The notes beneath the pieces were generated by a model that saw nothing but the letters and a program-made list of their open reading frames with translations, searched no databases and had not been told where the DNA came from. This document shows, one piece after another, positions 11,871-27,783 of a stretch of DNA of 64,000 nt. The translations under genes were made by a program, and so were the position numbers. Every line of letters starts with the position of its first letter. Position 1 is the first letter of the stretch. The stretch lies in contig JAQXDE010000035.1 in the NCBI GenBank assembly GCA_029251525.1, forward strand, positions 248,001 to 312,000, written 5' to 3'. The DNA is from Saprospiraceae bacterium (GTDB lineage Bacteria > Bacteroidota > Bacteroidia > Chitinophagales > Saprospiraceae).

Positions 11871-12053
11871 ATCTTTTCTCCAAGTTTTACACAAAAATAA
11901 GTTTTTTAATGGTAGGAATTTCAAAGATTCTTAATAAAATTCATAATGTTAAAAAACAGAGAATTTTATTAAATAATTCAACCTTTCTATTTACATTGCG
12001 CGTGCTTAAAAATAGCCACTTGATTTAAATGTCAATTTAAAAAGAACAACCTT

Positions 12054-13583
12054 ATGCTTGATAGTTTTTTAGGGAATAGTCCTCGTTGGTTTAAATATAC
12101 AATGATTGGGTTTTTAGTGTTTAATGTAGCTTCTTTATTTATTTTGGGAACTAAAATCACAGCATGGATATTCATTGCCGAATTTATTTTTACTCTCGCA
12201 ATGGCTTTGAAATGTTATCCACTTCAATCTGGTGGTATTCTTGCAATTCAAGCGCTCTTGTTAGGTTTAACCCATCCAATGTATAAATTAGACCATGGAA
12301 ATGTTGTTTACGATGAATTAGGAAAGGCTGTAAAAGGTGGAGTTATCTTAGAAGTCGAACATAACCTTGAAGTAATTTTATTATTAGTTTTCATGGTTGC
12401 AGGGATTTATTTTATGAAGCCTTTGTTAATGTATATATTTAGTAAAATCTTTATAAAAATTAGATCTAAACTGGTTTTATCACTTTTATTTGTATTTCTG
12501 TCAGCTGTATTATCGGCGTTTTTAGATGCACTGACTGTAACCGCAGTATTGATAAGTGTTACAGTGGGTTTTTACGGGGTTTATCACAAGATACATTCTA
12601 GTTCCTCGGATTATGATCATAGTGGGGTTTTGGATAGGAAGGAATTATCGGGTGAGACTTTAGAACAATTTCGATCCTTTTTAAGGAGCCTTGTGATGCA
12701 TGGAGTTGTAGGTACGGCCTTGGGTGGAGTTTGTACATTAGTAGGGGAGCCTCAAAATCTATTAATAGGAGAAAGACTGGGTTGGGATTTTATTGAATTC
12801 TTTAAGCAGATGGCGCCAATTACAATGCCTGTTTTAGCTTGTGGATTATTAACAACCATTTTCTTGGAGAAAACTAAATTATTTGGGTACGGTACCCAAA
12901 TGCCAAGCGTGGCAAGGGGAATAATTGAAAATTATACAGAAGAATCAGATGCCAAAAGAACAAAAAAAGAAAAATATGCATTGATGGTTCAGGCTATATC
13001 TGCTATTTTATTAATTGTTGGTCTAGCACTGCATTTAGCTCCTGTTGGATTGATTGGATTGGGATTAATCATTGTTCAAACTGCTTTTACTGGAATAATT
13101 GACGAGCATGCAATTGGGAAAGCATTTGAAGAAGCTTTACCATTTACTGGCCTTTTAGTTGTATTCTTTGTGATAGTTGCTATGATTCATGATCAACATT
13201 TATTTAGCCCTATTATTGAGTGGGCTCTTACTCTAGAGTTATCACAACAACCAACTATGTTTTACTTAGCAAATGGGATACTTTCAATGATAAGCGATAA
13301 TGTTTTTGTAGCTACAGTTTACATAGGGGAAGTGAAAAGTGTATTTGATGCGGGTGATATTAGTCGAGAGCAATTTGAAAAATTAGCAATTGCTATTAAT
13401 ACAGGAACAAATTTACCAAGTGTAGCAACACCAAATGGACAAGCGGCCTTTTTGTTTTTATTGACCTCTGCTCTCGCACCACTAATCAATTTGTCTTACG
13501 GGAAAATGGTAAAGATGGCATTTCCATACACTATTGTTTTGGGAGGAGTCGGACTTTTAGGGGTAATGTATTATTTGGGATAG
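12054..13583 (+). CDS. nhaB: NhaB-type Na+/H+ antiporter
   Basis: An integral membrane protein of 509 residues with about 11-13 hydrophobic segments, close to the 513 residues of Escherichia coli NhaB. It exchanges cytoplasmic Na+ for protons across the inner membrane. Motifs supporting NhaB include [50 protein letters not shown] and the conserved [20 protein letters not shown]. The gene stands alone and is followed by a UUCG hairpin. A near-consensus TACATTGC at about 11992 might be its -7 box. A second, unrelated Na+/H+ antiporter family is encoded at 21714-23009, so sodium export appears important, perhaps for a marine or saline habitat (inference). Confidence 0.93.
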
Positions 13584-13613
13584 AAGTTAATGTGAGTAAT
13601 CTAATCAGGAATT

Positions 13614-13640
13614 AGTAATTTTCGAATTACTTTTAATATT
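13614..13640 (+). terminator. terminator after nhaB with a UUCG tetraloop
   Basis: AGTAATT-TTCG-AATTACT (13614-13631) is a perfect 7-bp stem closed by a TTCG loop and followed by TTTAATATT. It sits 31 bases after the nhaB stop. Confidence 0.55.
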
Positions 13641-13714
13641 GAGTGATAATGATTTTAATTTTTTTTAAGCTTGAAAGTATCTTTTTTTTCTAAGTGAGTT
13701 ATGAAATTAAAACA

Positions 13715-14089
13715 ATGAAATTAAAAATCCTTCTTATTTTTTCTATTCCTTTTCTAATTTTTACTTGTAAAAAAATTGACGAAACATTACTTCATGGTGA
13801 ATGGAAAGTTGACTCAATGATTGAAAAAGGTAAAGCGACTGATAAAGGTGCAGAACAAGCTACCTTCAATTTTCTTTCAAATGGTACTTATACTTACGAG
13901 ATTTCATACTATAAAGAGGCAGGTAATTATACAACTAAAGATGGTAAATTGTACTCTACCGACACCTTAAATTCAGATCGGATAGAAAAGGTTGTAAGAG
14001 TTGTCCAAATTACTGCTGATAGCATGGTGTTAGAAATGAATAATGCAGGTATTCCACAAATATGGAATTGTTTTAAATCTTCCAAATAA
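13715..14089 (+). CDS. small lipocalin-like lipoprotein
   Basis: A protein of 124 residues. The start at 13715 (MKLKILLIFSIPFLIFTCKK) gives a short signal with a lipobox-like LIFTC, so Cys18 would be lipid-modified. A GTG seven codons upstream is less likely. The mature part, LLHGEWKVDSMIEKG ... ATFNFLSNGTYTYEISY ... GNYTTKDGKLYSTD ... VVQITADSMVLEMNN, has the alternating strands of the lipocalin-like/DUF4488-type small lipoproteins common in Bacteroidota. The function of these is mostly unknown, and no ligand can be proposed. It stands alone. Confidence 0.7.
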   Translation: MKLKILLIFSIPFLIFTCKKIDETLLHGEWKVDSMIEKGKATDKGAEQATFNFLSNGTYTYEISYYKEAGNYTTKDGKLYSTDTLNSDRIEKVVRVVQITADSMVLEMNNAGIPQIWNCFKSSK

Positions 14090-14124
14090 AAAATTAAAAA
14101 TTTTGTATTTTATCTAGTAATCAG

Positions 14125-14169
14125 TTTATACATTTATAAAGTACTGTTAATGTGCTGTTTATGTATAAA
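14125..14169 (+). other. inverted repeat, possible weak terminator
   Basis: TTTATACAT (14125-14133) and ATGTATAAA (14161-14169) can pair around a 27-base loop, between the lipoprotein gene and the next unknown gene. In AT-rich DNA this may be chance. Confidence 0.25.
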
Positions 14170-14234
14170 ATTAGGTTTTATGTTTCATATATTTATTTTT
14201 TATTAATTTAAAAAAAGCAGGCAAGTTTAAATTT

Positions 14235-14708
14235 TTGGCAAAAGAATTGCAAAGAAAACTATGTAATTCTATCCCAATAAATTTAAAATCTGTGAGAATG
14301 ATAAGTTATAAAAAAGTCACTCGTGTTCTTCAAAATCCACCAACAAAGGACTTGGTAGATTTATACAACGAAATAGATTTAGGGATTAGTAGACATAATT
14401 TGTGTGTAAATGAAGACGAGCCTTTAAAATATTTAAATGAGGCAGATATTTTTGGAAAAGTTAAAGGTAAATTTTGTGTAAGTGCGACGAGTATTCAAAG
14501 TAAATATGTGGCTTTTGTTTTAGGAAAACATGTTGATGCTACTTTTCCGAGCGATATTATTCAAATGTTTTTCAATATTGGAAATGATTATAAGATGCAA
14601 TTTGGAAAAATAAAAGGAAAAAAAATTGATGGATGTATATGTTTGGTGCATCAAGAAGCTAAAAACTTTGATTTACAGAAAATTTATGATTCTATTTATG
14701 ATTTATAA
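14235..14708 (+). CDS. protein of unknown function
   Basis: Up to 157 residues if translation begins at the TTG at 14235. The first in-frame ATG is at 14298 and would give 136 residues (MISYKKVTRVLQNPPTKDLV). No signal peptide or membrane helix is seen. The sequence is mixed alpha/beta with VKGKFCVSATSIQSKYVAFV and IKGKKIDGCICLVHQE, and ends in a helix, DLQKIYDSIYDL. I do not recognise a family. It lies alone between two single genes and is followed by a strong terminator, which supports it being transcribed. Confidence 0.55.
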   Translation: MAKELQRKLCNSIPINLKSVRMISYKKVTRVLQNPPTKDLVDLYNEIDLGISRHNLCVNEDEPLKYLNEADIFGKVKGKFCVSATSIQSKYVAFVLGKHVDATFPSDIIQMFFNIGNDYKMQFGKIKGKKIDGCICLVHQEAKNFDLQKIYDSIYDL

Positions 14709-14766
14709 AAATAAATCTTAAACCAACTATAAGCTAAATATTATTAGCAATAAAATTTGCGTTGAG

Positions 14767-14800
14767 GCGCCGAAATTTATATTTCGGCGCTTTTTGTTTT
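14767..14800 (+). terminator. strong terminator
   Basis: GCGCCGAAAT (14767-14776) and ATTTCGGCGC (14781-14790) form a perfect 10-bp GC-rich stem with a 4-base loop, followed by TTTTTGTTTT. It ends the unknown gene at 14235-14708. Confidence 0.88.
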
Positions 14801-14907
14801 TTACAAAGATTGCGTCTAGTTTGTTGGTAAATGAATTTTGTGATGATAATTACAATTGAGTTCAATAAATTTAGTGATATTTGCTCCGCACTTAATAACT
14901 TACAAAA

Positions 14908-15300
14908 ATGGATAAACAAGAAAAGAACCGAGGAGTTTTGTCTAGTATATTTTTAATGAAATGTCCTAGGTGCCGTGAAGGAGATTTATTTTATACGCAT
15001 ACTTTTTCCTATTCAAGGCCAACTGAGATGCCTGATAAATGTGAAATTTGTAAGCAAAGTTTTTCACCTGAACCTGGGTTTTGGTTTGGAGCAATGTTCG
15101 TTTCATACATTTGGATGGCTTGGTTTTGCTTGTTCTTTGTAGGTGGTGGTATTTTGATAGCTGGAATGAGTGTCAATGGAGCTTTTGCCTTACTAATCGT
15201 GATATGTGCGATTTTTTACTTTTGGATTTTTAGAATATCGAGATCAATGTGGATACATGTTTACGTAAAATATGATCCTTTTGCAAAGTCAAAAAAATAA
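14908..15300 (+). CDS. DUF983 family membrane protein with two CxxC pairs
   Basis: A protein of 130 residues. A cytoplasmic N-terminus carries zinc-ribbon-like pairs C19-x2-C22 (FLMKCPRCREGDLF) and C45-x2-C48 (KCEICKQSF). Two membrane helices follow, near 60-85 and 90-110. This layout and the spacing 'CPRCxxGxLF ... C..C...F..EPGFWFGAMFVSY' are typical of DUF983, a widespread family of unknown role. A near-consensus GATATTTG (TAnnTTTG with one change) lies about 33 bases before the ATG. It is a single gene, separated from the convergent gene by a strong terminator. Confidence 0.88.
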   Translation: MDKQEKNRGVLSSIFLMKCPRCREGDLFYTHTFSYSRPTEMPDKCEICKQSFSPEPGFWFGAMFVSYIWMAWFCLFFVGGGILIAGMSVNGAFALLIVICAIFYFWIFRISRSMWIHVYVKYDPFAKSKK

Positions 15301-15322
15301 GTTAAAAATATACACACAATAA

Positions 15323-15358
15323 AAAACGGGTTGCATTCAATTGGATGCAACCCGTTTT
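15323..15358. terminator. strong bidirectional terminator
   Basis: AAAACGGGTTGCAT (15323-15336) and its exact complement at 15345-15358 form a 14-bp stem with an 8-base loop. It lies between the convergent DUF983 and PorE-like genes, 22 bases past the DUF983 stop. Confidence 0.9.
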
Positions 15359-15374
15359 CTATTGTTCAAGTAAT

Positions 15375-17363
15375 TTAATCAATCACACTGAATGTAGTTC
15401 TTCGATTAGCTTGATGGTCTATCTCAGAGCACCTTGAACATAAGCAATCAACTTCTGGAGAACTTTTTCCAAAACCTTTTGCTTGTAACCTTTCTGATTT
15501 TACTCCCTTTGAGATAATATAATCAACAGCGGACTGCGCTCTTCTTTGGGACAGAGTTTGGTTATAATTGGCTTTTCCTCGGCAATCAGTATGTGATGCC
15601 ATTTGAATTCGGATTTTTGGATTCTCCAAAAGTGTTTTCGATAGCTCATTTAATGTTGGCTGCGCATCACGCCGAATATTCCATTGATCATAATCGTAAT
15701 ATATATTTTTCAAAATGATTTCTCTGTTTTTGAAAATTTTATCTAGTACGATTTCTATTTCAAACTTTTGAATAGGATTATTTTCATTTTGAGCGATTCC
15801 TACAGTACTAAATCTGGCAGAATTATTAAAATATCCTTCGTGACTCCCCAAAAAGTTATAATCTGTATTTTTATCTAATTCCAATGTGAATTTTCCATCT
15901 CTATCAATTTTTACTGAACGTTTTTTTCCATTAATATCAATTTCCACTGCTGAATCTAATAATGGTTTTCTTCCTAAAACTTTACTGTTCGGGTTATCTG
16001 TAGATTGATATATTTTTTCCAAAACATAACCATCTAAAACTAATTTATAAATAATTGAATCTGGGTTTTCAACTACTGGTTTTGGAGGAAGAGGAGGAGG
16101 AATTCTTTTTACAAATCTATAGATGTCATCACTTCCCTTTCCGTCTATTCGAGAAGAAGTAAAATATCCTTCATGTAAAATATTTCCAGAGGGCTTAAGT
16201 TTTTGGTTGACTACATAGCCAAAGTCATCCCAGCCTGAATTTATAGGAGCTTTCAAGTTAATAATGGGAGACCACGCGTCTTCTTTTGTTTTTACTGATC
16301 GAAAAATATCTAATCCGCCCATTCCAGTATGGCCTGTTGATGCAAAATACAAGGTGTCACCATGCATAAATGGAAATTTTTCATCCTTCTCAGAATTAAT
16401 AGTCCTACTCAATGGACGAGGTGTGTCCCATCCGTCTGGTGTTCGTTCAGAAACAAAAATATCATAACCGCCCCACCCATCAGGATGATCTGTTGAGAAA
16501 TAGAGACTTGATCCATCTTTTGAAAGAGATGGGTGACCATAATTTACATTTGGTTCTAGAAATTCCAAAGCTACAGCCTCTGTCCAATTATCTCCCTCTT
16601 TGTTACTGCGCATCAATTTGCAAAAATAATCTACATCTTCAGAATCATAACATCTTGAGAAATAAATTTCAGAGAAATCATTATTGAAGGCAATCGTTCC
16701 CTCATTATTTGGAGTATTGATGATTTTTGAAAATGTTTTCACCTTATTGGAAGAAATATTTGCTATAAATAAATCTGAAAATTTTCCTCCAGTCCAATTG
16801 TAAATGTCATCGCCTTTTGAGTCACTTCGATCAGAGGTGAAAACAATTTGATTATTTATATAGGGAGTCGGAGCGTACTCAGAAGAGGCACTATTAAAGG
16901 AAACTAGTTCAATCTCATAACCTGTCATGTCACCTTGTTCTTGCCAATCTAATGCAATTTTACATGCTGTAATTTCTTTGCGGTATTCATATGGACTTCC
17001 TATTTCTAGACCTAATTCTTTAAAGGCTTCCATTGCATCTCCGTATTGCTCATTTTTTTTCAAAGCATAGGAATATTCTCTAAGTGCATCTGACCCATAT
17101 TGGTTATCGTAGGCAGTTTTATACCAGGAAATGGCGGAGGAGTTTTTGTTCGTTCTTTTGTAGGATTCTGCCAGCAGGAAAGCAATTTTTCCTTTTTCGA
17201 CACGACTATCTGCCTTTTTATATTCTTTGTTTAGCATATCAACTGCAACGGAATATTGCTTTCTTTCAAAAGCCATTTTTCCATCAGTAATCTTTTGGGT
17301 AAACTTACAACCCAAAATCATAGATAAAGTAACTGCTAAAATTGTCCAAGTTTTGATATTCAT
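15375..17363 (-). CDS. second PorE-like lipoprotein (TPR + PD40 + OmpA)
   Basis: A protein of 662 residues with the domain order of the gene at 4170-6116. It has a lipoprotein signal (MNIKTWTILAVTLSMILGCK, Cys19), unlike the first copy. TPR repeats span ~25-115, PD40 blades ~160-410 (GGYDIFVSER, GGLDIFRSVK, SDDIYRF), then a proline-rich hinge (RIPPPLPPKPVVENP) and a regulatory-like beta domain ~430-530. The OmpA domain covers ~545-662 (KNIYYDYDQWNIRRDAQPTL, ASHTDCRGKANYNQTLSQRR). The tail holds a cysteine-rich insert, CLCSRC, just before the end of the OmpA fold. Known: PorE of the type IX system has this architecture. Inference: anchors a surface machine to peptidoglycan. Which of the two copies is the true PorE is undecided. 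Confidence 0.85.
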   Translation of the reverse strand: MNIKTWTILAVTLSMILGCKFTQKITDGKMAFERKQYSVAVDMLNKEYKKADSRVEKGKIAFLLAESYKRTNKNSSAISWYKTAYDNQYGSDALREYSYALKKNEQYGDAMEAFKELGLEIGSPYEYRKEITACKIALDWQEQGDMTGYEIELVSFNSASSEYAPTPYINNQIVFTSDRSDSKGDDIYNWTGGKFSDLFIANISSNKVKTFSKIINTPNNEGTIAFNNDFSEIYFSRCYDSEDVDYFCKLMRSNKEGDNWTEAVALEFLEPNVNYGHPSLSKDGSSLYFSTDHPDGWGGYDIFVSERTPDGWDTPRPLSRTINSEKDEKFPFMHGDTLYFASTGHTGMGGLDIFRSVKTKEDAWSPIINLKAPINSGWDDFGYVVNQKLKPSGNILHEGYFTSSRIDGKGSDDIYRFVKRIPPPLPPKPVVENPDSIIYKLVLDGYVLEKIYQSTDNPNSKVLGRKPLLDSAVEIDINGKKRSVKIDRDGKFTLELDKNTDYNFLGSHEGYFNNSARFSTVGIAQNENNPIQKFEIEIVLDKIFKNREIILKNIYYDYDQWNIRRDAQPTLNELSKTLLENPKIRIQMASHTDCRGKANYNQTLSQRRAQSAVDYIISKGVKSERLQAKGFGKSSPEVDCLCSRCSEIDHQANRRTTFSVID

Positions 17364-17521
17364 AAAATCATATTTAGAGTGTAATACTACAAAATAAAAC
17401 GCTTTTTATTTATTGTTTGTTGCAGACAGATAGGTTCGTCAAATCAATTGTGACATTTATTAATTAGAGGAAATTTATTAATTAATTGTTCGGAAGAATT
17501 ACTGGTGGGTACAAATAAATA

Positions 17522-17546
17522 AAGCTCGGCTTTTTGAGCCGAGCTT
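17522..17546 (-). terminator. orphan terminator-like hairpin
   Basis: AAGCTCGGCT (17522-17531) and AGCCGAGCTT (17537-17546) form a perfect 10-bp stem with a 5-base loop. On the minus strand it is followed by TATTTATTTG. No intact gene lies upstream of it on the minus strand within the following ~660 bases, so it may be left from a lost gene or may end a small RNA. Confidence 0.5.
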
Positions 17547-18205
17547 AGGAAACGAATCTTACAATTTTTTAACCAAAACTTACAAATCCAAATAGTACAA
17601 CTTGTGTGCCAGAAATTAAGTTTTGAATTATTATGAGTAAGTTTTATTCATAATGATCATAAAACTAATAATTGATTAACAATTGCTATAATCTGAATCA
17701 TTTCTCTCAAAAATGCTTTTAACAATCAATATATTCCTCAACAATAAAAAATATAAACCATATAAAAACAATTAGGCTCAGCAAACTTAAAGCTTAACTT
17801 CCTAATATTTTATCAAAAAGTTGAATCTGGATCAAGATGGAGATGACTAAGAAAAGATAAGTTGACATCCAACTCATTTGAGAGTATATAATGTTATTGC
17901 AAACAGTCCTTTACAACTTTATGACGTTTTAGGTAATTAAATTGAAAAAGTACTAGGAAGGATTTAATTTTTCAACAAAATGTAGTTTGAATTTCAGTTA
18001 AAGTTCCTAGCAATTATTTTAATAAAAACGAAAACAATGTTTAAATTGAGCCTTATTAATGCCAGATTCAAGCATGAATACGAAATTAATAATGTCAAAA
18101 TTAAAATTTAATAATTGACTCTTTTTTAAAAGTTTTCCAGATTATTCAAATTAGGAAAAGAATTACTTTTTTAAAACCTAAAGTCAACAGAACTTTTTAA
18201 TATAA
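17547..18205. other. intergenic stretch with a possible gene remnant
   Basis: This is the largest gene-free part of an 842-base gap. Apart from the hairpin at its left end and the sorting-domain-like remnant at 17869-18039, I see nothing. No -7 box is evident before the ATPase gene at 18206. Confidence 0.4.
17869..18039 (+). pseudogene. possible decayed type IX secretion sorting-domain tail
   Basis: One plus-strand frame reads THLRVYNVIANSPLQLYDVL followed by GN-stop-IEKVLGRI, then, after a shift, ISVKVPSNYFNKNEN. The run 'LQLYDVLGN.IEKV ... VPS.NYF' resembles the C-terminal type A sorting domain of type IX secreted proteins (usual form: I.iYDvLGk.v...l.Gi.Y.ik). It has at least two stops and one frameshift, and no upstream coding sequence survives. 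Low confidence. Confidence 0.3.
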
Positions 18206-20623
18206 ATGATAGATACTATCAAAAAGCAAAGTCTCAAATCTCTTCTTAATATTTTTGATATTACATTAGATTCTATAGTGAATCAGGTTTGGAGTGAAAA
18301 TCCTGATCATTTAGAGTCATTTTCAAGTGGTATGGCCAAAATCACGCATCATATTTTAGAGCTAGGAGAATATGTGAAGAATGAATTAGATGAGAGTTCT
18401 ATTGAATCAAATGAGTTATTACCAAGTTATATTATTCAATATTCGTGGATGGAAGAAGCTAAATCATTTTTGATTTTGTGGCGAGACGTTATTTTTCAAT
18501 ATCAAAAAGCTTTAGTATTAAAATCAAATCAAAAAATTTCTGAGGAGAGTTTAATGCAACTTCGTTTAACTTCAAAAGATGTTATTCAGGAAGGTGTAAA
18601 TTATCTTAAAAACTATCTAGAAAAAGAAACTACTAATCTAGAAAAGAATAAAAGAGAATTAAAGTCCAAGATTTTTGAATGGAAAAAAAATAAGAGCCCA
18701 TATGGAATCTATAGGGTGCAAATCGAAACCATAAATCAACAATGTGAAAAGTTAATAGAGCAGTATCAATCTCTTTTAAAATCATCTAAAGTTTTTCAAA
18801 ACATTGGGCAGTTAATTCAACAAAATATCACAACGAGCAAAGTTGAAATTGACCAGTTAAAAATATTGGCAAATGATGCTAAAAAATTAGTGGAAGATCA
18901 TGTTACTGATAAACCTGGAAAATTATCTACTCTCCTTATAAATATGGAATCTAAATTGGAAACTAGCCAACATTTGGAATTATTGAATATTTCGATTAAT
19001 AAAGAAATTGAATCTTTGGAAGATAATATTCAGGTTCCAATTGAAGTTGATGGCGGGTTATTACTTTTTCGAGAGATTAATTTGAAAAATATATCGAGGC
19101 TATGGTTGGAATCAGAGACCACTCCCTTGGTATACGAATTTTGGAAAGTTAATGACCAAATTCTTAATAGTTTTAAGATGGCTTTGATGAATATTCGAAA
19201 TCGAGCTATGCTATTTTCAAGTGAATTAAAAAAGGAAGATGGAACTAAAGGAGGAATAGATCCAAGGTTTGAGCAAGATAAATTTTGGTATCCGATTGTT
19301 TCTTTTTTGCAAAAAACAAATTTATGGGAGAATGAGTTAAATTCTCTTTCTGGAATTATTCAGGATAGGTTATCTAAAGAGTTTCAAATAAGCGAGATTT
19401 ATAATACAGAAAAGGTCTTTCTTCCTATACCATTGCAAACTACAATTAATCAATACCGATTAACTCAAAATCCATGGGTTTTAAATACTCAAAATTGGTT
19501 AAAAAAGCAAATTAGACGTTTCCAAAAGTTTAAAAATACTGTAGAAAAAGAAGATGCTTTAAGTATCTCTGAAAAGATTGTTCGCTTTGTTCAAAATAAA
19601 AACAGACCTATTGGTAATCATCAATATTCCAATATATTTTTGACTAAAGGATATATGGGTAAATCATTTTGGGTAGGTCGAAAGATTGAATTGGAGCGAT
19701 TTAATAACATTGTAGACCAATGGAAAATAGGTTTTCGAGGGGCAGTAATTTTAAGTGGGCAACGATTTTCTGGTAAGTCATTATTTGGTGAATATATTTC
19801 AACTCTTCATTTTCCCCAGAAATCAATTCGACTATTGCCAAATGTTACTTTAAAAGTTGGAGGACGAATTTTAGAGACCACCTATGACCTTGGCGCAGCA
19901 ATAGATTTTATCCAAAAGTACTCTGTTAATGATCAATCTTTAATTTGGATTGATGATTTGGAAAACTGGAGTGATCCCAATATTCCACTTGGACAAAATG
20001 TAAGAGCACTTATAAAATCGATTGATAATCATGGTGGAAGAATGTTTTTTATGGTTTCCATGGCGAACTGGATGGTGGCGCATTTGGACAAAACTCATGA
20101 AATACAAAAAGTTTTTCAAGCAGATATCAACTTGGATAAAATGAGTTCGGCAGAAATCAAAGAAGCGATCTTAATTAGGCATGGAGCTACCCATAAGATT
20201 TTAGTTAACAAAAATAATGAGGAACCCTCTCCTCAAGAGTTTCAAAAAATGACAGATGGCATATTCCGGTATACTTTAGGGAATATTGGAGAGTCTCTCT
20301 CTAGGTGGTCTTTTTCAATTTATAAAAAGAGCGAGGAAAAGGTAGAATTTCGAGCATCGATTAATTATGCGTTTCCTGATTTTTTAAATCCTGATGTAGC
20401 GATAATCCTGACTACTCTAATGATGGAAAAAAGGACAAATGAATATCGGTTGAGGAAACTATTTGGTTCCCCATTCCAAGAGAAATTTAATTTCATTATT
20501 CAACGATTAATAAGTATCGGGATTTTGACTCGCCATATTGATGGTTGGTTAGAGGTGAACGAGGTAGTGGTTAATGAAGTTGGAAAAATATTGGAAGAAA
20601 AAAATTATTTGAAGTTCTATTAA
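18206..20623 (+). CDS. large coiled-coil P-loop ATPase of unknown function
   Basis: A soluble protein of 805 residues with no signal peptide. Residues 1-480 are almost entirely helical and charged, with likely coiled coils around 140-290. An ATPase domain starts near 490 (FWVGRKIELERFNNIVDQW). It has a Walker A motif GQRFSGKS at 518-525 and a Walker B motif LIWIDD at 579-584, followed by a sensor-like VSMANWM. The C-terminal ~130 residues resemble a winged-helix bundle (LNPDVAIILTTLMMEKRTNE). The layout suggests an AAA+ or STAND-like NTPase, but I cannot name the family. The next gene, 71 bases on, encodes an MscS-like membrane protein. Inference: the two may form a membrane-linked system. 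Confidence 0.75.
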   Translation: MIDTIKKQSLKSLLNIFDITLDSIVNQVWSENPDHLESFSSGMAKITHHILELGEYVKNELDESSIESNELLPSYIIQYSWMEEAKSFLILWRDVIFQYQKALVLKSNQKISEESLMQLRLTSKDVIQEGVNYLKNYLEKETTNLEKNKRELKSKIFEWKKNKSPYGIYRVQIETINQQCEKLIEQYQSLLKSSKVFQNIGQLIQQNITTSKVEIDQLKILANDAKKLVEDHVTDKPGKLSTLLINMESKLETSQHLELLNISINKEIESLEDNIQVPIEVDGGLLLFREINLKNISRLWLESETTPLVYEFWKVNDQILNSFKMALMNIRNRAMLFSSELKKEDGTKGGIDPRFEQDKFWYPIVSFLQKTNLWENELNSLSGIIQDRLSKEFQISEIYNTEKVFLPIPLQTTINQYRLTQNPWVLNTQNWLKKQIRRFQKFKNTVEKEDALSISEKIVRFVQNKNRPIGNHQYSNIFLTKGYMGKSFWVGRKIELERFNNIVDQWKIGFRGAVILSGQRFSGKSLFGEYISTLHFPQKSIRLLPNVTLKVGGRILETTYDLGAAIDFIQKYSVNDQSLIWIDDLENWSDPNIPLGQNVRALIKSIDNHGGRMFFMVSMANWMVAHLDKTHEIQKVFQADINLDKMSSAEIKEAILIRHGATHKILVNKNNEEPSPQEFQKMTDGIFRYTLGNIGESLSRWSFSIYKKSEEKVEFRASINYAFPDFLNPDVAIILTTLMMEKRTNEYRLRKLFGSPFQEKFNFIIQRLISIGILTRHIDGWLEVNEVVVNEVGKILEEKNYLKFY

Positions 20624-20694
20624 AAGCAAGGATGAAATAATAGATTTGAAATCGAAGATTTATATAATATTAAAATTATTGGAGTTTGATTCTT

Positions 20695-21675
20695 ATGAAA
20701 AAAATAATTGGAACGATATTTTTACTTTTTTGTGTTTTTATTTTAGGATTTTCTCAATTTGGCGAAAGTCCTCATTCTCCTTTAGATTCTGCAATTGTTG
20801 ATTCTACTGTTTTAGAGCATTCAACTAAGAAAGAATTAAAAGGAATTTTAACAGAAGTTCTTTCACAAGGTGATAGTGGAAAGTTAAACGTTACTATCAT
20901 TAATGTACCGCCCCAAAATCCAATTTTTAGAGAAGAATTAAAGGAAGAAGCTTTAAATCAAGAATATTTTAATTGGTGGCAATTTCTCCTTAGTTCTTTG
21001 TTATTATTGGGGCTTTATTTTTTACTTGAATTTTTAAACAGGGTTTTAACCAAATATAATTTTCTAGGGAAATACCAAACTAATGTGAAAGGCTTAGTTA
21101 TGCATTCTCTTTTAATATTTGAGGCAGTTGCTTTGTTAATCTTAGGCAGCGGTTTTGTTCTGATTAATCCGTTTTATCATGGAATATTAGTTGTTATAGT
21201 TTTAGCAGTTGGATTCAATCACCTAAAGAATTATTTTAGTGGCAGAATCGTTCAATTTGATAAATCAGTAATTGAAGGGAAAAGATTGAAAACGTATAAT
21301 TCACATGGAGTTATATTCAAAAAGGGAAGGTTTGGCCTTAAATTGAGAACTCAAAAGGGTGTCCAGTTTGTCAATTATTCTAGGTTGATTTCAGATGGAT
21401 ATACGTTATTGACTGGTATAGAAGTTGGCGGGTTTTATGAATTGGAAATTCAACCTAAAAGTTTTGAATTAAAAAAGGATTATTTAATTGTTTTAAGAGA
21501 TTTGTTGACTACCACTCCATACTTAGACCTAAGTCATAAGCCACAATTGGAAAAAGTAGGTGATGGTGAATCTAGAGTAATTTTAGCTAGGGTAGAAGTG
21601 AAGGAAGAAAGTCATTTACAAGATTTGGTAACCTTGATTAAGGAACAAGATTTTTCATGTAAGGTGGTTTCATAA
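20695..21675 (+). CDS. MscS-like membrane protein
   Basis: A protein of 326 residues from the ATG at 20695, which is preceded by GGAG; a TTG three codons upstream is less likely. Residues 1-22 are a signal peptide (IFLLFCVFILGFSQFG). A periplasmic stretch of ~70 residues follows, then three membrane helices (~90-115, 135-158, 162-182). The last runs into LAVGFNHLKNYFSGRIVQFD, the pore-helix/beta junction seen in MscS mechanosensitive channels, and a beta domain (SHGVIFKKGRFGLKLRTQKG). The pore helix is short and lacks the regular Gly/Ala packing of true MscS, so gating may differ. It sits between the ATPase and the antiporter, 38 bases before the latter, probably in one transcript. Confidence 0.7.
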   Translation: MKKIIGTIFLLFCVFILGFSQFGESPHSPLDSAIVDSTVLEHSTKKELKGILTEVLSQGDSGKLNVTIINVPPQNPIFREELKEEALNQEYFNWWQFLLSSLLLLGLYFLLEFLNRVLTKYNFLGKYQTNVKGLVMHSLLIFEAVALLILGSGFVLINPFYHGILVVIVLAVGFNHLKNYFSGRIVQFDKSVIEGKRLKTYNSHGVIFKKGRFGLKLRTQKGVQFVNYSRLISDGYTLLTGIEVGGFYELEIQPKSFELKKDYLIVLRDLLTTTPYLDLSHKPQLEKVGDGESRVILARVEVKEESHLQDLVTLIKEQDFSCKVVS

Positions 21676-21713
21676 CACAATATTTATAGAGCTGAATTTT
21701 TAAAATACAAAAT

Positions 21714-23009
21714 ATGGATCTTTCTAATTTGAGTACCGAAATGATTTTAATTGGAGTATCTGCAATTATTATTATTTCATTTTTCTTTGGTGAGTTGTCA
21801 AGGAAAACTAATGTTCCATCCGTTTTAATGCTGATTATTTTCGGTGTGATTTGCCAAAGTATTGTAAAGATTGAACAAGAAACACTAAGGCCAATATTAG
21901 GTTTGTTGGGGACAGTAGGACTGATTATGATAGTTCTAGAGGCGGCTTTAGAGTTAGAGTTGAAAAGAGAAAAATATATTCCAATCGCAAAAGCTATGGC
22001 CATTGCACTAATTGGACTTTTAGCATCGGCTTATATTGCTGCAGAAATTTTATTTTATTTTTATGAAGGAGACGGAATGACAATAGAGAAGGCTTGGATT
22101 TATGCCACGCCGCTGTCTATCTTGTCAAGCGCCATTATTATTCCAAGTGTTTCAGGTTTAAATTCTGTTAAAAAAGAATTTCATATTTATGAAAGTACCT
22201 TTTCAGATATATTGGGAATTATTGTTTTTTATTATTTAACAGGACAGCTGGGGAATGAAGATGACCATGGTGGAGGTTTAGTAGGTTATGGCGGAAATGT
22301 ATTGTTAACAATTGTAGTCTCATTTATTGCAAGTTATTTGATAATTCTTATTTTTCAGAGTATTAAAAGTCATACTAAATTATTTTTATTGATTGCAGTA
22401 TTGCTTTTGTTGTATGGTGTCGGGAAAGAAATGCACCTTTCAGCTTTAATTGTTATTTTGATATTCGGATTAATAATCGCCAATATGAAATTGTTTTTCA
22501 AAGGAATATTAGGTCGTTGGCTACATTTGGAGAAGGCTAATCAGATATATGAAGGGTTGCACGTTATCACAATGGAAACTGCTTTTGTGGTTAGAACCTT
22601 TTTCTTTGTTATTTTTGGACTATCAATAAATTTATTGTCTTTAAATAGTCTAAATGTTGCTATTATTAGTGGATTGATAATCGGATCTATTTATATTATT
22701 CGTTACCTCACATTAAGGCCATCGATAGGTGAAGATATAAACCCTCAATTGTATATTGCACCTCGGGGTTTGATAACCATATTGTTGTTTTATAAGATTC
22801 CTGAAGCTGCAAAAGTAGAAGCATTTAACTCAGGAATTTTATTGTTCATAATAATTGGAACGAGTTTGATAATGACGGTTGCCATGATAATGGACAAGCG
22901 AAATACAGGGAAAGCAATTCGGAAAGCAGAAGAACAACCTGTAGGTTATGAAAAATGGAGAGCACCTTCTATTTCTGATGTTATTGATAATCAAAGTGAT
23001 AACCATTAG
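21714..23009 (+). CDS. CPA-family cation:proton antiporter
   Basis: A protein of 431 residues with about 12 membrane segments. It begins with the typical SFFFGELSRKTNVPSVLMLI helix. The central ESTFSDILGIIVFY segment holds the acidic residue expected for ion binding in CPA antiporters, and APRGLITILLFYKI matches a conserved late helix. It exchanges Na+ or K+ for H+ in the inner membrane; ion choice cannot be read. The C-terminal 40 residues are a short polar tail with no TrkA domain. It lies 38 bases after the MscS-like gene and 26 bases before the decarboxylase gene, so several of these genes may be co-transcribed. Confidence 0.88.
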   Translation: MDLSNLSTEMILIGVSAIIIISFFFGELSRKTNVPSVLMLIIFGVICQSIVKIEQETLRPILGLLGTVGLIMIVLEAALELELKREKYIPIAKAMAIALIGLLASAYIAAEILFYFYEGDGMTIEKAWIYATPLSILSSAIIIPSVSGLNSVKKEFHIYESTFSDILGIIVFYYLTGQLGNEDDHGGGLVGYGGNVLLTIVVSFIASYLIILIFQSIKSHTKLFLLIAVLLLLYGVGKEMHLSALIVILIFGLIIANMKLFFKGILGRWLHLEKANQIYEGLHVITMETAFVVRTFFFVIFGLSINLLSLNSLNVAIISGLIIGSIYIIRYLTLRPSIGEDINPQLYIAPRGLITILLFYKIPEAAKVEAFNSGILLFIIIGTSLIMTVAMIMDKRNTGKAIRKAEEQPVGYEKWRAPSISDVIDNQSDNH

Positions 23010-23035
23010 TGAATTAATATTTTAATACAAAGCAA

Positions 23036-23797
23036 ATGAATCTTAAAAATCTTGCAAAAATTGTTGATGACGCAGCATTAAACGCCAAACCGATTTCTCA
23101 ATTAAGTTTGAATAACCAATTTTCTGAAAAAGAAGCTTATGAAATCCAGGCTAATTCTATAGCTAGAAGATACAACAGAGGGGAAAAATTAGTGGGTGTT
23201 AAACTTGGCTTTACAAGTAAAGCTAAGATGGAACAGATGGGAGTTCATGATATGATATGGGGAAGATTGACTGATGGAATGTTGATTGGACAAAATTCAA
23301 GTTTACTGTTAGAGAAAATGATTCATCCTAGGGCGGAACCTGAAATTTGTTTTTTGGTGAAAAAAGAAATAAGTAAGGAGATTCCTTTGAGTGAAATCAA
23401 AGAATATATTTACGGTGTGGCAGGAGCTATTGAAGTAATTGATTCTAGGTATGAAAATTTTAAATTTTCTTTGGAGGATGTAATAGCTGATAATTGTTCT
23501 TCAGCAGGTTTTGTAATTGGAAAATGGCATAATGTAGATACACCTTTGGAAGATTTAAAAATGGATTTAATTATTAATGATGAAGTTGTTCAATCTGGAT
23601 CATCCAATGCAATTTTAGGTAATCCTTGGGAATCCGTTGTGGCTGCTTCAAGACTTTGTTCCAAGTACGATCAGGTAATTCGTTCTGGAAGTTATATTAT
23701 GGCTGGAGCTGCAACTTCTGCTGTTTATTTGGAGAAAAACCAGATTGTAAAAGTTGAGGTGGCAACATTAGGTTCTGTTCAGTTTTCTATCCAATAG
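23036..23797 (+). CDS. 4-oxalocrotonate decarboxylase / 2-keto-4-pentenoate hydratase family enzyme
   Basis: A protein of 253 residues of the fumarylacetoacetase-like fold. Motifs LVGVKLGFTSKAKMEQMGV, HPRAEPEICFLVKKEI (metal-binding Glu pair region), AGAIEVIDSRYENFKFSLED and ADNCSSAGFVIGKW match the 4-oxalocrotonate decarboxylase (DmpH/XylI) and hydratase (DmpE) group of the meta-cleavage pathway. The retained VGVKLGFTSKAKM block favours decarboxylase. In Bacteroidota such enzymes often serve 2-aminomuconate/kynurenine degradation (known for the pathway, inference here). The next pathway enzyme, 4-hydroxy-2-oxovalerate aldolase, is encoded at the far right edge. The downstream AraC gene may regulate it. 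Confidence 0.85.
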   Translation: MNLKNLAKIVDDAALNAKPISQLSLNNQFSEKEAYEIQANSIARRYNRGEKLVGVKLGFTSKAKMEQMGVHDMIWGRLTDGMLIGQNSSLLLEKMIHPRAEPEICFLVKKEISKEIPLSEIKEYIYGVAGAIEVIDSRYENFKFSLEDVIADNCSSAGFVIGKWHNVDTPLEDLKMDLIINDEVVQSGSSNAILGNPWESVVAASRLCSKYDQVIRSGSYIMAGAATSAVYLEKNQIVKVEVATLGSVQFSIQ

Positions 23798-23892
23798 GTT
23801 TATATTGAGTTAATAGATCATTGTATATATTTTGATTTGTTAAGGATACTTTATTAAAAATGATTTTGTGATAAATTAAAAAACACAATTTC

Positions 23893-24777
23893 TTGAAAGT
23901 TAAAAAACATATTCCAGGTTTTGATTTGCCAAATCTTCATAATAAGGCCTTTGAGTTTGCGATTGTTTCTAATCGTGAAATTTTAGATCATAATATTCCA
24001 ACTAATCATGATCCATTTCGACCCCATCGAATACATTTTTATGCTATTCTTTTTATCCTTGAGGGAAACGGGAAACATTTCATAGATTTTAAAAGCTATG
24101 ATTACCAAAAGGGTAGTGTTATTTTTATTGCCAAGGATCAAGTTCAAGCTTTTCAAAAAAATGATGATAGAGAAGCTTATTTTTTATTGTTTACCGAAAA
24201 CTTTATTGAACGAGGTAGCTTAAGTTCAAATTTAATGCAGGAGTTAAGTTTGTATAACTATCATTTATACTCACCTGTGATCAACCTAGAAGGAGATGGA
24301 ATGAATATTTTTAAAAGTTTAGTCAATCGAATTAAAAAGGAATATGATGCGCCTGATGATAATTTAACTGAGGAAATAATACAATCTTCCCTGAAAATAT
24401 TTTTAGGTTTGTCGGAACGTAAAAGAAAAAAAAATCAATCTACGTTATCAGTTTCAAAGTATCAAATTGAATTTAATCAATTTCAAAATTTGCTCAATAA
24501 ATACCTTTTTATTTCTCGTCAAGTTCAATTTTATGCTAACGAGATGAATATGTCCTCTAAGAAACTAAATCGGATAACACAAGAATTAATGGGCAAGCCT
24601 GTTAAAACCTATATCAATGATTCTTTGATTTTGGAAATAAAACGTTTGCTTATGAATACCTCCTTGAGTATCAAAGAAATCAGTTATAAAATTGGTTTTG
24701 AAGACCCCACTAATTTTGTAAAGTATTTTAAAAAGTATACTGAATTGACTCCTATTGATTTTCGAAAAAAGTATTAA
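23893..24777 (+). CDS. AraC-family transcriptional regulator
   Basis: A protein of 294 residues. No in-frame ATG lies between the upstream stop at 23872 and well inside the gene, so a TTG at 23893 is the likely start. The N-terminal half is a cupin-like sensing domain (FRPHRIHFYAILFILEGNGK, HFIDFKSYDYQKGSVIFIAK). The C-terminal ~100 residues hold the two helix-turn-helix motifs of AraC/XylS (YANEMNMSSKKLNRITQEL and SIKEISYKIGFEDPTNFVKY, then FRKKY). It follows the decarboxylase gene by 95 bases on the same strand, and control of an aromatic or kynurenine catabolic gene set is plausible but unproven. Confidence 0.9.
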   Translation: MKVKKHIPGFDLPNLHNKAFEFAIVSNREILDHNIPTNHDPFRPHRIHFYAILFILEGNGKHFIDFKSYDYQKGSVIFIAKDQVQAFQKNDDREAYFLLFTENFIERGSLSSNLMQELSLYNYHLYSPVINLEGDGMNIFKSLVNRIKKEYDAPDDNLTEEIIQSSLKIFLGLSERKRKKNQSTLSVSKYQIEFNQFQNLLNKYLFISRQVQFYANEMNMSSKKLNRITQELMGKPVKTYINDSLILEIKRLLMNTSLSIKEISYKIGFEDPTNFVKYFKKYTELTPIDFRKKY

Positions 24778-25143
24778 GCGAAAGTTAATTTAGTCCTAAT
24801 TTGAGCTAATTTCTTATTAAATAAATCTCCCATAATTACCATTTCTAAATTTAAACACTAAATTGAAATACTGATGATTAGATTCTGTAATGGTCTATTT
24901 TTAGTAATTGATTCGGCATTTTGTTTTGTTAATTAATTGATTTAATGTTTTTTATTCTGATTATTTTTTATTGAATGCACGAATGTCTGTGTTTTTATAC
25001 ACATTCCAAATACTCTTCTTTTTATTATGTTTCATGTTTTGTCCCGTTTTAACCATTATTCTACTTTGTTTAACCTTTTGTAATTTTTGTTTATTGTTCA
25101 ATTTTGCATTCGAAATACAAAATATATTTACACAACAATTTAG
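24778..25143. other. intergenic stretch without a convincing gene
   Basis: It is very AT-rich. A TTG-initiated frame at 24971-25156 would give a 61-residue, almost wholly hydrophobic peptide and overlaps the next gene start. I regard it as chance. An AATTTTGC about 45 bases before the CotH-like gene is a poor match to the -7 box. Confidence 0.4.
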
Positions 25144-26211
25144 ATGGAAAAATTAAAGAAGGGAGGCATGAAAGTATTAAACAATTACATTCATATTTTT
25201 GCACTAATATTGGTAGCGAATTATTCTTTTGCAAATCCCAATCCAGTCAATTTAAATAGCATTTTTGATGTACTAAATTATCAAGAAATCCTTGAGGTAG
25301 ATTTGAGTTTAGACATGGAGGACGTTTTCGGAAATAGAAGAAGTAAAGATAAACATAAAGCAGTTTTGTCATTTAGGGATAAAAGTGGTAACGATCAAAC
25401 TTGGAATATTAAAGTAGGTTTACGAGGAAGATTTAGAAGAACCAGGTGTAATAATTTAGCCCCATTAAAATTACATTTTAGTAAAAATGATTTGTTGGAT
25501 GCAGGATTAGCAAAATTTAATGATTTAAAGCTTGTTAACCAATGTATGGATGACTCAAAAAATTTGAAACAACTTTTGGTAAGAGAGTATTTAGCATACA
25601 GGTTATACAATCAAATAACTGATCAGAGTTTTAGAGTTCAATTTTTAAAAATCAATTATTTTGATACTCAAACGGGTAAATCAAGAATACAATATGGTTT
25701 TGTGATTGAGGATACTGCTCAATTGAGAGCACGGGTTAATGGAATGAAAGTTGAAAACCAATACAATGTAAGACAAGAGAAATTTGATCAGCATCAAATA
25801 AAGCTAATGTCTATCTTTCAATATATGATTGGAAACCCAGATTGGTCAATTGGGCGAGATCATAACGTAAAAATAATATTACAGGGAGATAAATTAATTG
25901 CTATCCCATATGATTTTGACTTTTCAGGTATCGTGGAAGCTCCTTATGCTATGATAAATGCAGAACTTGGTATTGCTAGTCCAAAGGATAGGGTATTTCT
26001 TGGTTTTGAAAATCATGTTGAGAATATGACTTACGAATTAGATATTTTTGAAGATAAAAGGTCATCATTAATCAAGACAATTAAAGAATGTAAGTCGTTA
26101 AAGGGGAGAAATCGAAGAGAAATGATTAAATTTATTAATTCGTTTTATGATGAGACTGAAAACTTTTATTTGCCTTTACAAAAAGATAAAGTTCCAACAT
26201 TAGGGGAATAG
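25144..26211 (+). CDS. secreted CotH-kinase-like protein
   Basis: A protein of 355 residues with a signal peptide (LNNYIHIFALILVANYSFAN). The alternative ATG at 25168 would keep the same signal. Conserved-looking parts are LKVGLRGRFRRTR-like basic strands, a helix 'LKLVNQCMDDSKNLKQLLVR' then EYLAYRLYNQI, and an acidic pair NPDWSIGRDHNVKI and IAIPYDFDFSGIVEAPYA. This 'REYLAYRLYN ... GRDHN ... PYDFDFSG' layout resembles the atypical CotH kinase fold, where the Asp residues bind metal and phosphate. The match is partial and the enzyme activity is inference. It lies 52 bases before the Pycsar-type effector gene on the same strand. Confidence 0.55.
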   Translation: MEKLKKGGMKVLNNYIHIFALILVANYSFANPNPVNLNSIFDVLNYQEILEVDLSLDMEDVFGNRRSKDKHKAVLSFRDKSGNDQTWNIKVGLRGRFRRTRCNNLAPLKLHFSKNDLLDAGLAKFNDLKLVNQCMDDSKNLKQLLVREYLAYRLYNQITDQSFRVQFLKINYFDTQTGKSRIQYGFVIEDTAQLRARVNGMKVENQYNVRQEKFDQHQIKLMSIFQYMIGNPDWSIGRDHNVKIILQGDKLIAIPYDFDFSGIVEAPYAMINAELGIASPKDRVFLGFENHVENMTYELDIFEDKRSSLIKTIKECKSLKGRNRREMIKFINSFYDETENFYLPLQKDKVPTLGE

Positions 26212-26263
26212 ATAAATAAATTCACAAAAACTGACTTACTAGTAACTCAAAAAACACATACTT

Positions 26264-26857
26264 ATGATTGAAGTTTTACAAGATGAAATAATTGTCAAAA
26301 AAGGAAAAAAGAAGGGAAAGGTGAAAAGTGGAATTTCGAAACAGACGATTAATATTATTAGAACAACTCAAAGAAACAATATCGATTTAACTGCAATTGC
26401 TGATAACAAAGCTAATGTTTTGCTAAGTTTGAACGCAATAATAATTGCTGCTCTTATTCCAATAGTGATAGCTAATGTTGATATCGTTTTTGAAAAAATG
26501 ATGATTATTCCATTAATGATTCTTGCAGTTACAAGTTTTGTTACAATATATTTGTCAGCAGCAGTTTTGAAACCATCTAATTTTGATAGAATGAGGTCAA
26601 GCGCTAATCCTGACTCAGATTCTAGCCCTTTCTTTTTTGGGAATTTTTACAAGATGGAAGCAGAGGAATATTTTAAATTTATAAAACCTTCTTTGTCTAA
26701 CCCCAAAGATTTGAAGGCTCATTTGGCTCAAGATCTTTATTATATCGGAAAAAGGTTAGGAGAGAAAATGGCCTTTGTTCGGCAGGCATACAATATTTTT
26801 ACAATAGGAATTCTAGTGACATTAATTAGTTTTGGAGCAGTAGTGTTTTTATTTTAA
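26264..26857 (+). CDS. Pycsar-type membrane effector (DUF5706-like)
   Basis: A protein of 197 residues. A basic N-terminus of ~35 residues is followed by the signature RNNIDLTAIADNKANVLLSL, which leads into two membrane helices (~62-82 and ~88-112). A cytoplasmic part (FFFGNFYKMEAEEYFKFIKP, then HLAQDLYYIGKRLGEKM) and a third helix at the C-terminus complete it. Known: this is the PycTM/DUF5706 architecture of Pycsar effectors, which permeabilise the membrane when a phage-triggered cyclase makes cCMP or cUMP. No pyrimidine cyclase gene is visible within the window, so a defence role is unproven. It may share a transcript with the CotH-like gene and ends at a strong terminator. Confidence 0.75.
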   Translation: MIEVLQDEIIVKKGKKKGKVKSGISKQTINIIRTTQRNNIDLTAIADNKANVLLSLNAIIIAALIPIVIANVDIVFEKMMIIPLMILAVTSFVTIYLSAAVLKPSNFDRMRSSANPDSDSSPFFFGNFYKMEAEEYFKFIKPSLSNPKDLKAHLAQDLYYIGKRLGEKMAFVRQAYNIFTIGILVTLISFGAVVFLF

Positions 26858-26885
26858 AAAAATAAAAATAGTAGTATTTTAAATT

Positions 26886-26926
26886 AAAAAGAGCTTTCAA
26901 TCTGTTTAGGTTGAAAGCTCTTTTTT
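26886..26926. terminator. strong bidirectional terminator
   Basis: AAAAAGAGCTTTCAA (26886-26900) and its exact complement (26911-26925) form a 15-bp stem with a 10-base loop. The A and T runs suit both strands, between the convergent effector gene and menB. Confidence 0.9.
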
Positions 26927-26940
26927 GATAAAGGATTCAA

Positions 26941-27783
26941 TTATGGGAATTTAGGAAATTTATCAAAGTTAGGTTTTCGTTTTTCCAAAAATGCATTTCT
27001 TCCCTCTTCTGCTTCTTCAGTCATATAACCTAGGCGAGTGGCTTCACCAGCAAACAGTTGTTGCCCAACCAATCCATCATCAATCATGTTGAAGGCAAAC
27101 TTCAACATTTTTATTGCCATTGGACTTTTCGCTAAAATTTCTTGTGCCCATTGATAGGCGGTATCTTCTAATTCCTCGTGAGGAATAGATGCATTGGCCA
27201 TACCCATAGCAACTGCCTCATCAGCTGAGTAATTTCTTCCTAAGAAAAAAATCTCTCGAGCTCTTTTCTGCCCAACTTGTCGAGCCAAATAAGCAGATCC
27301 ATAACCAGCATCATAACTTGCTACATCAGCATCCGTTTGTTTAAAGATAGCATGCTCCTTACTAGCTAAAGTTAAATCGCAAACTACATGTAAACTATGT
27401 CCCCCTCCAACGGCCCAACCTGGAACTACTGCAATAACAGCTTTATTCATAAATCTGATCTGCCTTTGAACTTCTAAAATATTGAGTCGATGAATTCCAT
27501 CTTCTCCTCTGTATCCAGTTTTGTCACGAACTCTTTGATCGCCTCCAGAACAAAAAGAATAAACTCCATCTTTGGGGGAAGGTCCTTCTGCAGAGAGTAA
27601 GACTACTCCAATAGTTTGATCTTCACGAGCATCAATAAATGCTTCAAAAAGTTCAGAAACTGTTTTTGGTCGAAAAGCATTTCGAACTTCTGGTCGATTA
27701 AATGCTATTCTGGCAACTCCATTTTTTTTTCTGTAAGTAATGTCCACATATTCTTTAGCGGTGATCCAACCATTATTTTCCAT
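26941..27783 (-). CDS. menB: 1,4-dihydroxy-2-naphthoyl-CoA synthase
   Basis: A protein of 280 residues of the crotonase fold that closes the second ring in menaquinone synthesis, turning o-succinylbenzoyl-CoA into 1,4-dihydroxy-2-naphthoyl-CoA. It has the MenB-specific features YSFCSGGDQRVRDKTGY, VPGWAVGGGHSLHVVCDLTL, DADVASYDAGYGSAYLARQV and EIFFLGRNYSADEA, and the usual C-terminal FLEKRKPNF. It is complete and alone. The other men genes are not in the window. It fits the menaquinone-based respiration usual in Bacteroidota. Confidence 0.96.
   Translation of the reverse strand: MENNGWITAKEYVDITYRKKNGVARIAFNRPEVRNAFRPKTVSELFEAFIDAREDQTIGVVLLSAEGPSPKDGVYSFCSGGDQRVRDKTGYRGEDGIHRLNILEVQRQIRFMNKAVIAVVPGWAVGGGHSLHVVCDLTLASKEHAIFKQTDADVASYDAGYGSAYLARQVGQKRAREIFFLGRNYSADEAVAMGMANASIPHEELEDTAYQWAQEILAKSPMAIKMLKFAFNMIDDGLVGQQLFAGEATRLGYMTEEAEEGRNAFLEKRKPNFDKFPKFP

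Follow-up and report, generated by a model that had tools for sequence, protein, structure and literature searches.

What does a long ATPase do beside an MscS-like membrane protein and an antiporter? The question is raised by a Saprospiraceae bacterium (assembly GCA_029251525.1, contig JAQXDE010000035.1), in which a 64,000-nucleotide stretch (positions 248,001 to 312,000, referred to here as the window) carries genes for an ATPase, an MscS-like protein, and a cation/proton antiporter (CPA) in a row on one strand (Table 1). We give a probability of about one half to the reading, drawn from sequence comparison, that the three gene products are one ion-transport complex in which antiporter activity would be under the control of the ATPase. 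This reading is built on four observations, namely, the order and adjacency of the genes, fusions of the ATPase to transporters in relatives, a membrane protein homologous to MscS, and an altered pore helix in that protein.

An original prediction, made by a model from the letters of the window, had described the open reading frames (ORFs), the Walker motifs, the gene order, and the spacing correctly, including the 38 bases between the MscS-like gene and the antiporter gene. Only the start of the membrane protein had to be moved, from the TTG at 20686 to the ATG at 20695, where the protein reads M-K-K. The third gene is indeed a CPA antiporter, matching Pfam Na_H_Exchanger (PF00999) over residues 21 to 386 with an E value of 1.6e-19 (70.5 bits versus a cut-off of 26.2), and its ESTFSD motif is identical in all 14 aligned orthologues. 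It had been thought that the antiporter might be an optional or unrelated neighbor, and on this point comparison with relatives gave a different answer. In a close sample consisting of the window's genome and 59 relatives, the ATPase is present in 14 of the 60 genomes and the MscS-like protein in the same 14; a further match to the latter in genome G009 (E 1.9e-8) turned out to be a canonical MscS. The antiporter query matched 24 of the 60 genomes, at identities of at least 63% only in the 14 bearing the ATPase and of no more than 53% elsewhere. The triad is contiguous, with a conserved order and a shared strand, in 14/14 genomes, and its flanks vary between genera. When 136 flanking genes were compared, no outside gene family recurred in more than 6 of the 41 relatives' loci of this antiporter class. 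As judged from gene order, the three genes form a fixed operon, and the antiporter is a constant component of the window's version (42 loci including the window). Promoter and terminator predictions were about as frequent as in shuffled sequence (42 versus 40.7 and 4 versus 3.0, respectively) and were thus uninformative on co-transcription, and no Rfam element reached the gathering threshold in window positions 12000 to 28500.

Searches covered Bacteroidota genomes, plasmids, phages, and viral contigs, plus one genome-contig scan with the window ATPase that returned a single relative (L031, from an uncultured Saprospiraceae bacterium). A 15-row profile of the ATPase domain (A3) matched in 61 of 395 genomes sampled across the phylum and in 33 of 298 sampled across the order. 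Together with the close sample, these gave 106 distinct ATPase-domain genes (two rows of genome G099 in the phylum sample being one gene), and we examined the gene neighborhoods of all of them but the window's own, 105 in total. The original prediction had raised the prospect that homologues of the ATPase might occur mostly without the MscS-like gene; the opposite was found, as 102 of the 106, or 102 of the 103 judged to be real and assessable, have an MscS-like gene adjoining on the same strand, with the label coming from a profile built partly of the same neighbors and the Pfam beta domain (see below) serving as an independent check. The exceptions are L137, which has no MscS-like gene; L194, where the place of the partner is off the contig end; and L143 (E 9.7e-4) and L192 (E 5.8e-4), which have no MscS-like neighbor and were judged to be chance ATPase matches. 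Within the paired loci, a 125-amino-acid (aa) ORF separates the two genes in L142, the MscS gene lies upstream of the ATPase in L124 and L125, and L183 is counted from its open frame and stands outside the 40-protein alignment (A5) of antiporter-class membrane proteins. Locus L045, which was found via its membrane protein, is outside the 106 and inside the 50 transporter-less loci described next.

The relatives fall into four architecture classes, which were set by length, hydropathy, and neighbors and then checked with Pfam. Class 1, that of the window, has separate ATPase, MscS-like, and antiporter genes (42 loci, one of them without the MscS-like gene). In class 2, a permease is fused to the ATPase (six genes; 1640 to 1703 aa, plus the cut-off L194). 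All six of these proteins (L046, L104, L107, L109, L140, and L194) match AA_permease, and the SLC12 model is above cut-off in L104, misses it by less than 1 bit in L109 and L194, and is absent from the listed matches of the remaining three. Class 3, the CPA-fused class, comprises seven genes of 1465 to 1501 aa with 8 to 13 predicted membrane segments. A Na_H_Exchanger domain is fused to the ATPase in four of these (L121, L148, L161, and L178), and the N termini of L122 and L176 resemble that of L121 at 32 to 35% identity; the CPA-fused label of L122, L123, and L176 comes from length and hydropathy, with Pfam applied to the first two. Class 4 pairs the ATPase with a canonical MscS and no transporter (50 loci including L045). 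Across the loci examined, fusion to transporters involves the ATPase, and the MscS-like protein keeps an ORF of its own throughout. The N-terminal part of class 3 bears a marginal likeness to the class 1 antiporters (best E 0.031), which suggests that the class 3 transporter was probably acquired separately from that of class 1. A maximum-likelihood tree of 105 ATPase domains, quick, unrooted (no outgroup), and with some long branches, sorted the architectures with 5 changes, the minimum, versus 43.7 in shuffles, with support of 92 for the transporter-less group and 77 for the CPA-fused group.

These fusions also bear on the idea that the ATPase works in assembly or quality control, inserting or remodeling its membrane partners instead of regulating transport by them. 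An AAA-type domain with a long N-terminal region, in near-fixed association with an integral membrane protein, would suit such a role. We nevertheless consider it quite unlikely, as a general chaperone is not expected to be fused to clients from two transporter families and as some of the ATPase ORFs have no long N-terminal region (L115, L117, L120, L144, and L147; 380 to 433 aa with start sites taken as called, each beside a canonical MscS gene).

The sequence of the ATPase is in keeping with a nucleotide-binding protein. Residues 1 to 470 contain only 25 Pro/Gly and the protein has no hydrophobic membrane segment, which fits a long helical N-terminal region, for which the ~480 helical residues of the original prediction are a putative figure. 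Conservation is greater in the C-terminal half (14-row orthologue alignment), and both Walker motifs were located there as claimed; when the protein was shuffled 5000 times, a Walker A with such a Walker B after it arose 5 times. Walker A, an RH motif, and a GN motif with a Trp after it are kept in the consensus of every class. A strict Walker A is found in 82 of 104 relatives (last 430 residues), and nucleotide binding is likely in most of them. The Walker B acid pair is conserved in the antiporter class; transporter-less and CPA-fused proteins have a weaker version (EN). Hydrolysis of ATP by the window protein is likely, and elsewhere it is uncertain; given that a strict Walker B is rare outside the antiporter class, hydrolysis may not be general.

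Assignment of either the ATPase or the MscS-like protein to a named housekeeping family would have spoken against an undescribed system, and neither matched one in Pfam or NCBIfam. The window ATPase had no match in either database at E 1, AAA, STAND, and RCK (TrkA_N) models included, and its sole PADLOC match was to Csm3 (E 0.0062, 14.6 bits) at residues 127 to 223, in the helical region. Its homologue L161 passes the Pfam AAA_22 cut-off (32.5 bits versus 27), and further homologues match AAA_22, AAA_16, or nSTAND models below cut-off. The putative winged-helix-like segment near the C terminus matched a solved transcriptional regulator by profile, but weakly (E 0.26). Matches of the ATPase profile in PDB to a fibronectin-binding protein (E 0.0031) and haemagglutinin stems fall within the helical region and appear to be chance coiled-coil similarity, and phmmer matches of the single protein to HIV protease (E 0.13 and up) were put down to chance as well. 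A low-confidence structural model of the C-terminal 365 residues, from a 2-row alignment, was unusable (predicted local distance difference test score [pLDDT], 35.3).

Where a signal peptide and three helices had been predicted for the MscS-like protein, hydropathy gives a signal-like N terminus, a hydrophobic segment at ~94 to 114, and overlapping segments at ~130 to 176. The window protein alone had no Pfam or NCBIfam match at E 1. Nevertheless, the degenerate MscS-type junction that had been noticed is real: the profile of the antiporter class (40 proteins) matched the canonical MscS-type profile (50 proteins) with an hhalign probability of 97.5 (E 8.6e-12), and it matched the profile of the SLC12-type class at E 1.2e-22. 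The Pfam MscS beta domain (PF00924) was found at E 0.01 in 72 of the 102 class members scanned, that is, in 50/50 transporter-less, 7/7 CPA-fused, 5/5 SLC12-type, and 10/40 antiporter-class proteins. In PDB, a profile of 14 proteins of the window's class (A4) matched MscS at E 4.9e-4, with MscS-family chains at the top. A match to YnaI (E 3.5e-6) by the 16-row profile A1 was not used, as A1 held the canonical MscS of L045 plus the L046 protein; A4 is A1 without these two. The structural model, again from a 2-row alignment, was unusable (pLDDT 48.6), and the first ten hits of a fold search with it, all MscS-family chains, carry little weight at template modeling (TM) scores of ~0.2 by query length.

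The pore helix sets the classes apart, the figures here being sequence counts rather than independent events. The spacing between the anchors of the helix, taken from one alignment of 102 sequences, is 27 residues in 50/50 transporter-less proteins, 21 to 22 residues (5 to 6 shorter) in 40/40 of the antiporter class, and 21 to 22 residues in 4/5 of the SLC12-type class. Mean Gly+Ala content over the 20 residues preceding the junction is 0.31 in the transporter-less class, 0.15 in the antiporter class, 0.17 in the SLC12-type class, and 0.13 in the CPA-fused class. We prefer this residue-based count to an earlier fixed-column count, which gave 0.33, 0.20, 0.20, and 0.12 in the same order. A Gln immediately precedes the junction in 50/50 transporter-less proteins, 9/40 of the antiporter class, 0/5 of the SLC12-type class, and 0/7 of the CPA-fused class. 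The transporter-less protein looks like a complete channel by these measures (50 loci). The window's class does not have the small-residue-rich pore helix (TM3) that is a feature of the MscS family, and because of this altered helix we term the window protein MscS-like and do not file it as an MscS channel.

The same data bear on the main rival of our reading, in which the MscS-like protein would still be a channel everywhere, gated by tension or by the ATPase, and the transporter would restore the gradients. MscS homology in all classes, the canonical pore helix of the transporter-less class, and the near constancy of the ATPase-MscS pairing whatever the transporter are all consistent with this. 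However, the pore helix is poorer in small residues on average in all three transporter classes and is shortened throughout the separate-antiporter class, and the partner to which the ATPase has become fused is the transporter. On balance, we regard a channel that still conducts in every class as unlikely.

It is also important to point out several observations that weigh against a complex in which the antiporter has taken over conduction. The full 27-residue spacing of the pore helix is found in 7/7 proteins of the CPA-fused class, which also favors the rival just described. The ranges of Gly+Ala content overlap (0.25 to 0.50 in the transporter-less, 0.00 to 0.25 in the antiporter, and 0.05 to 0.40 in the SLC12-type class; 0.00 to 0.20 in the CPA-fused class), and the changes in the pore helix track clades and so represent few independent events. 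L122 and L123 had no Pfam exchanger match at E 0.001, and L123 is not clearly like the other CPA-fused proteins, so that its class membership is unproven. On the ATPase side, the Walker A deviants among the 104 relatives include nine with Arg for Lys, three without the final Ser/Thr, and ten in which none was seen, two of these ten being short 298-aa ORFs. Walker A together with a strict Walker B occurs in 31/40 of the antiporter class, 2/50 of the transporter-less class, 2/5 of the SLC12-type class, and 0/7 of the CPA-fused class. Finally, L137 is a single antiporter-type locus that does without the MscS-like gene, and 46 of the 60 genomes of the close sample have no ATPase.

Patchy presence, with 14 of 60 genomes in the close sample and 44 of 77 in the family of G330, is one of the points in favor of an anti-phage system, in which the ATPase would sense infection and kill or arrest the cell via the membrane proteins. 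STAND-like NTPases and membrane effectors are known from defense systems, and a gene for a PycTM-type effector lies 3.3 kb downstream of the operon. We disfavor this role, which the original prediction had entertained, and consider it very improbable. PADLOC gave no credible match for the three proteins. With the window ATPase alone as the query, and not the other two proteins or the other architectures, tblastn at E 0.001 found no match among 72,556 records of plasmids and 50,697 of phages, and none of 12 candidates from a pattern scan of viral contigs was confirmed. Within this scope, neither a credible match to a described defense protein nor carriage on a mobile element or in a defense island was seen, the nearby PycTM gene being a point to the contrary. 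Conserved chromosomal surroundings argue in the same direction, with relatives of the same two upstream neighbors at 37 of the 50 transporter-less loci (34 in a single family and the other 3 in two further families). The PycTM family, for its part, occurs only in the window and in L032, L033, and L035, all of one genus, and at no other close-relative locus. The PycTM-type membrane protein itself (26264 to 26857) matches PF18967 at E 2.2e-17 and PADLOC PycTM at 3.6e-17; a weakly CotH-like gene lies just upstream of it, and no PADLOC cyclase match was found among ten neighbor proteins scanned. On the strand opposite to the operon, a 662-aa OmpA/PD40 protein (15375 to 17363) has a PADLOC ZorB match (2.9e-7, residues 554 to 659) that falls on its OmpA domain.

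Taken together, the near-fixed ATPase-MscS pair, the transporter fusions, and the pore that is altered when a transporter is present lead us to favor an MscS-type platform through which ion flux is controlled. The ATPase would be a cytoplasmic AAA/STAND-type nucleotide-binding switch anchored to the inner membrane via the MscS-like protein, the beta and C-terminal domains of which would form a cytoplasmic platform. Through this platform, binding or hydrolysis of ATP would open or close ion flow. Conduction in transporter-less lineages would be through a canonical MscS-type channel; the window's lineage would have a degenerated MscS pore and the antiporter as its conducting part, so that the ATPase may set cation/proton exchange, with a probable role in balancing ions, pH, or volume. 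The physical complex, the direction of control, the ion, the signal sensed, and the cellular role of the triad are what we infer from the features above. More tentatively, and at somewhat less than even odds, there may be a class of ATP-driven or ATP-gated ion-flux machines across Bacteroidota, with a common ATPase-MscS control module that serves at least three conducting parts (an MscS pore, cation/proton antiporters, and SLC12-type cotransporters) and in which MscS would have gone from channel to regulatory adaptor.

Each part has relatives among known systems. The membrane protein is homologous to MscS channels such as MscS and YnaI, and differs in its adjoining AAA/STAND-type ATPase and, when a transporter is present, in its pore helix. 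Trk/Ktr systems (TrkH plus TrkA) likewise have a cytoplasmic nucleotide-binding protein serving a membrane ion transporter, and TrkH lies beside the CPA-fused genes in the operons of L121 and L123, with TrkA also in L123. Here, however, the nucleotide-binding domain is of the P-loop type, with no RCK (TrkA_N) domain of a Trk/Ktr-type regulator in the window ATPase, and there is an additional MscS-like subunit. The third gene is a clear member of the CPA antiporters, but with an ATPase and an MscS-like partner that we did not find described in searches of the open-access literature. The N-terminal part of the class 2 fusions belongs with SLC12 cotransporters and the APC superfamily, and differs from these in its C-terminal ATPase and MscS-like partner (off contig in L194). 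Among AAA_22, AAA_16, and nSTAND NTPases, L161 is the one family member above the AAA_22 cut-off; the window protein matches no model, and the searches turned up no described MscS-paired subfamily. The arrangement as a whole is unnamed in Pfam, NCBIfam, and PADLOC, and we found no description of an ATPase with an MscS-like protein and a transporter in searches of open-access full text or in passages of the reference list of PMC4301019. The original observation was right and even understated, and its suggestion that the ATPase and the MscS-like protein belong to an undescribed system is supported. The novelty would lie in the arrangement, as each part comes from a known family and the function is a proposal from sequence.

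Table 1. Features of the three-gene operon in the window.
Feature	Location	Strand	Evidence
ATPase gene, 805 aa	18206..20623	+	ORF; 14-row alignment
ATPase N-terminal Pro/Gly-poor region	residues ~1-448		Sequence composition
ATPase C-terminal AAA/STAND-type nucleotide-binding domain (predicted)	C-terminal half		Alignment; L161 match to AAA_22
Walker A GQRFSGKS, residues 518-525	19757..19780	+	Motif scan; consensus in all four architecture classes
Walker B-like LIWIDD, residues 579-584	19940..19957	+	Acid pair conserved in antiporter class
Putative winged-helix-like segment, residues ~735-800	20408..20605	+	Alignments; tentative assignment
MscS-like membrane protein gene, 326 aa	20695..21675	+	ORF, hydropathy, profile match to canonical class
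MscS-type pore-helix/beta-domain junction and beta domain, residues ~180-235	21232..21399	+	Alignments
CPA-type cation/proton antiporter gene, 431 aa	21714..23009	+	Pfam PF00999, ESTFSD motif, co-occurrence

Some relatives carry further genes or features. A 414-aa protein with 6 to 9 predicted membrane segments and no Pfam match is encoded before the CPA-fused ATPase genes of L121 (10547 to 11791) and L122 (1726 to 2970). Right after the MscS-like gene of one SLC12-type fusion system lies an adenylate/guanylate cyclase-type gene (L046, 4660 to 5829), and right after the MscS gene of a transporter-less locus lies a peptidase M49-type gene (L110, 3979 to 5628), with genes of similar size and place in L111 and L120. 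The ATPase of L137 (5075 to 7660) is 861 aa long and, by eye, has extra C-terminal residues.

In the usual picture, MscS-type channels respond passively to membrane tension by opening, and SLC12 and CPA transporters are governed by phosphorylation, pH, or small ligands. If the reading proposed here is true, many members of a large bacterial phylum would share a nucleotide-driven control of ion flow, and their membrane proteins would form a natural gradation, running from functional channels to adaptors, for testing what the MscS cytoplasmic domain does.

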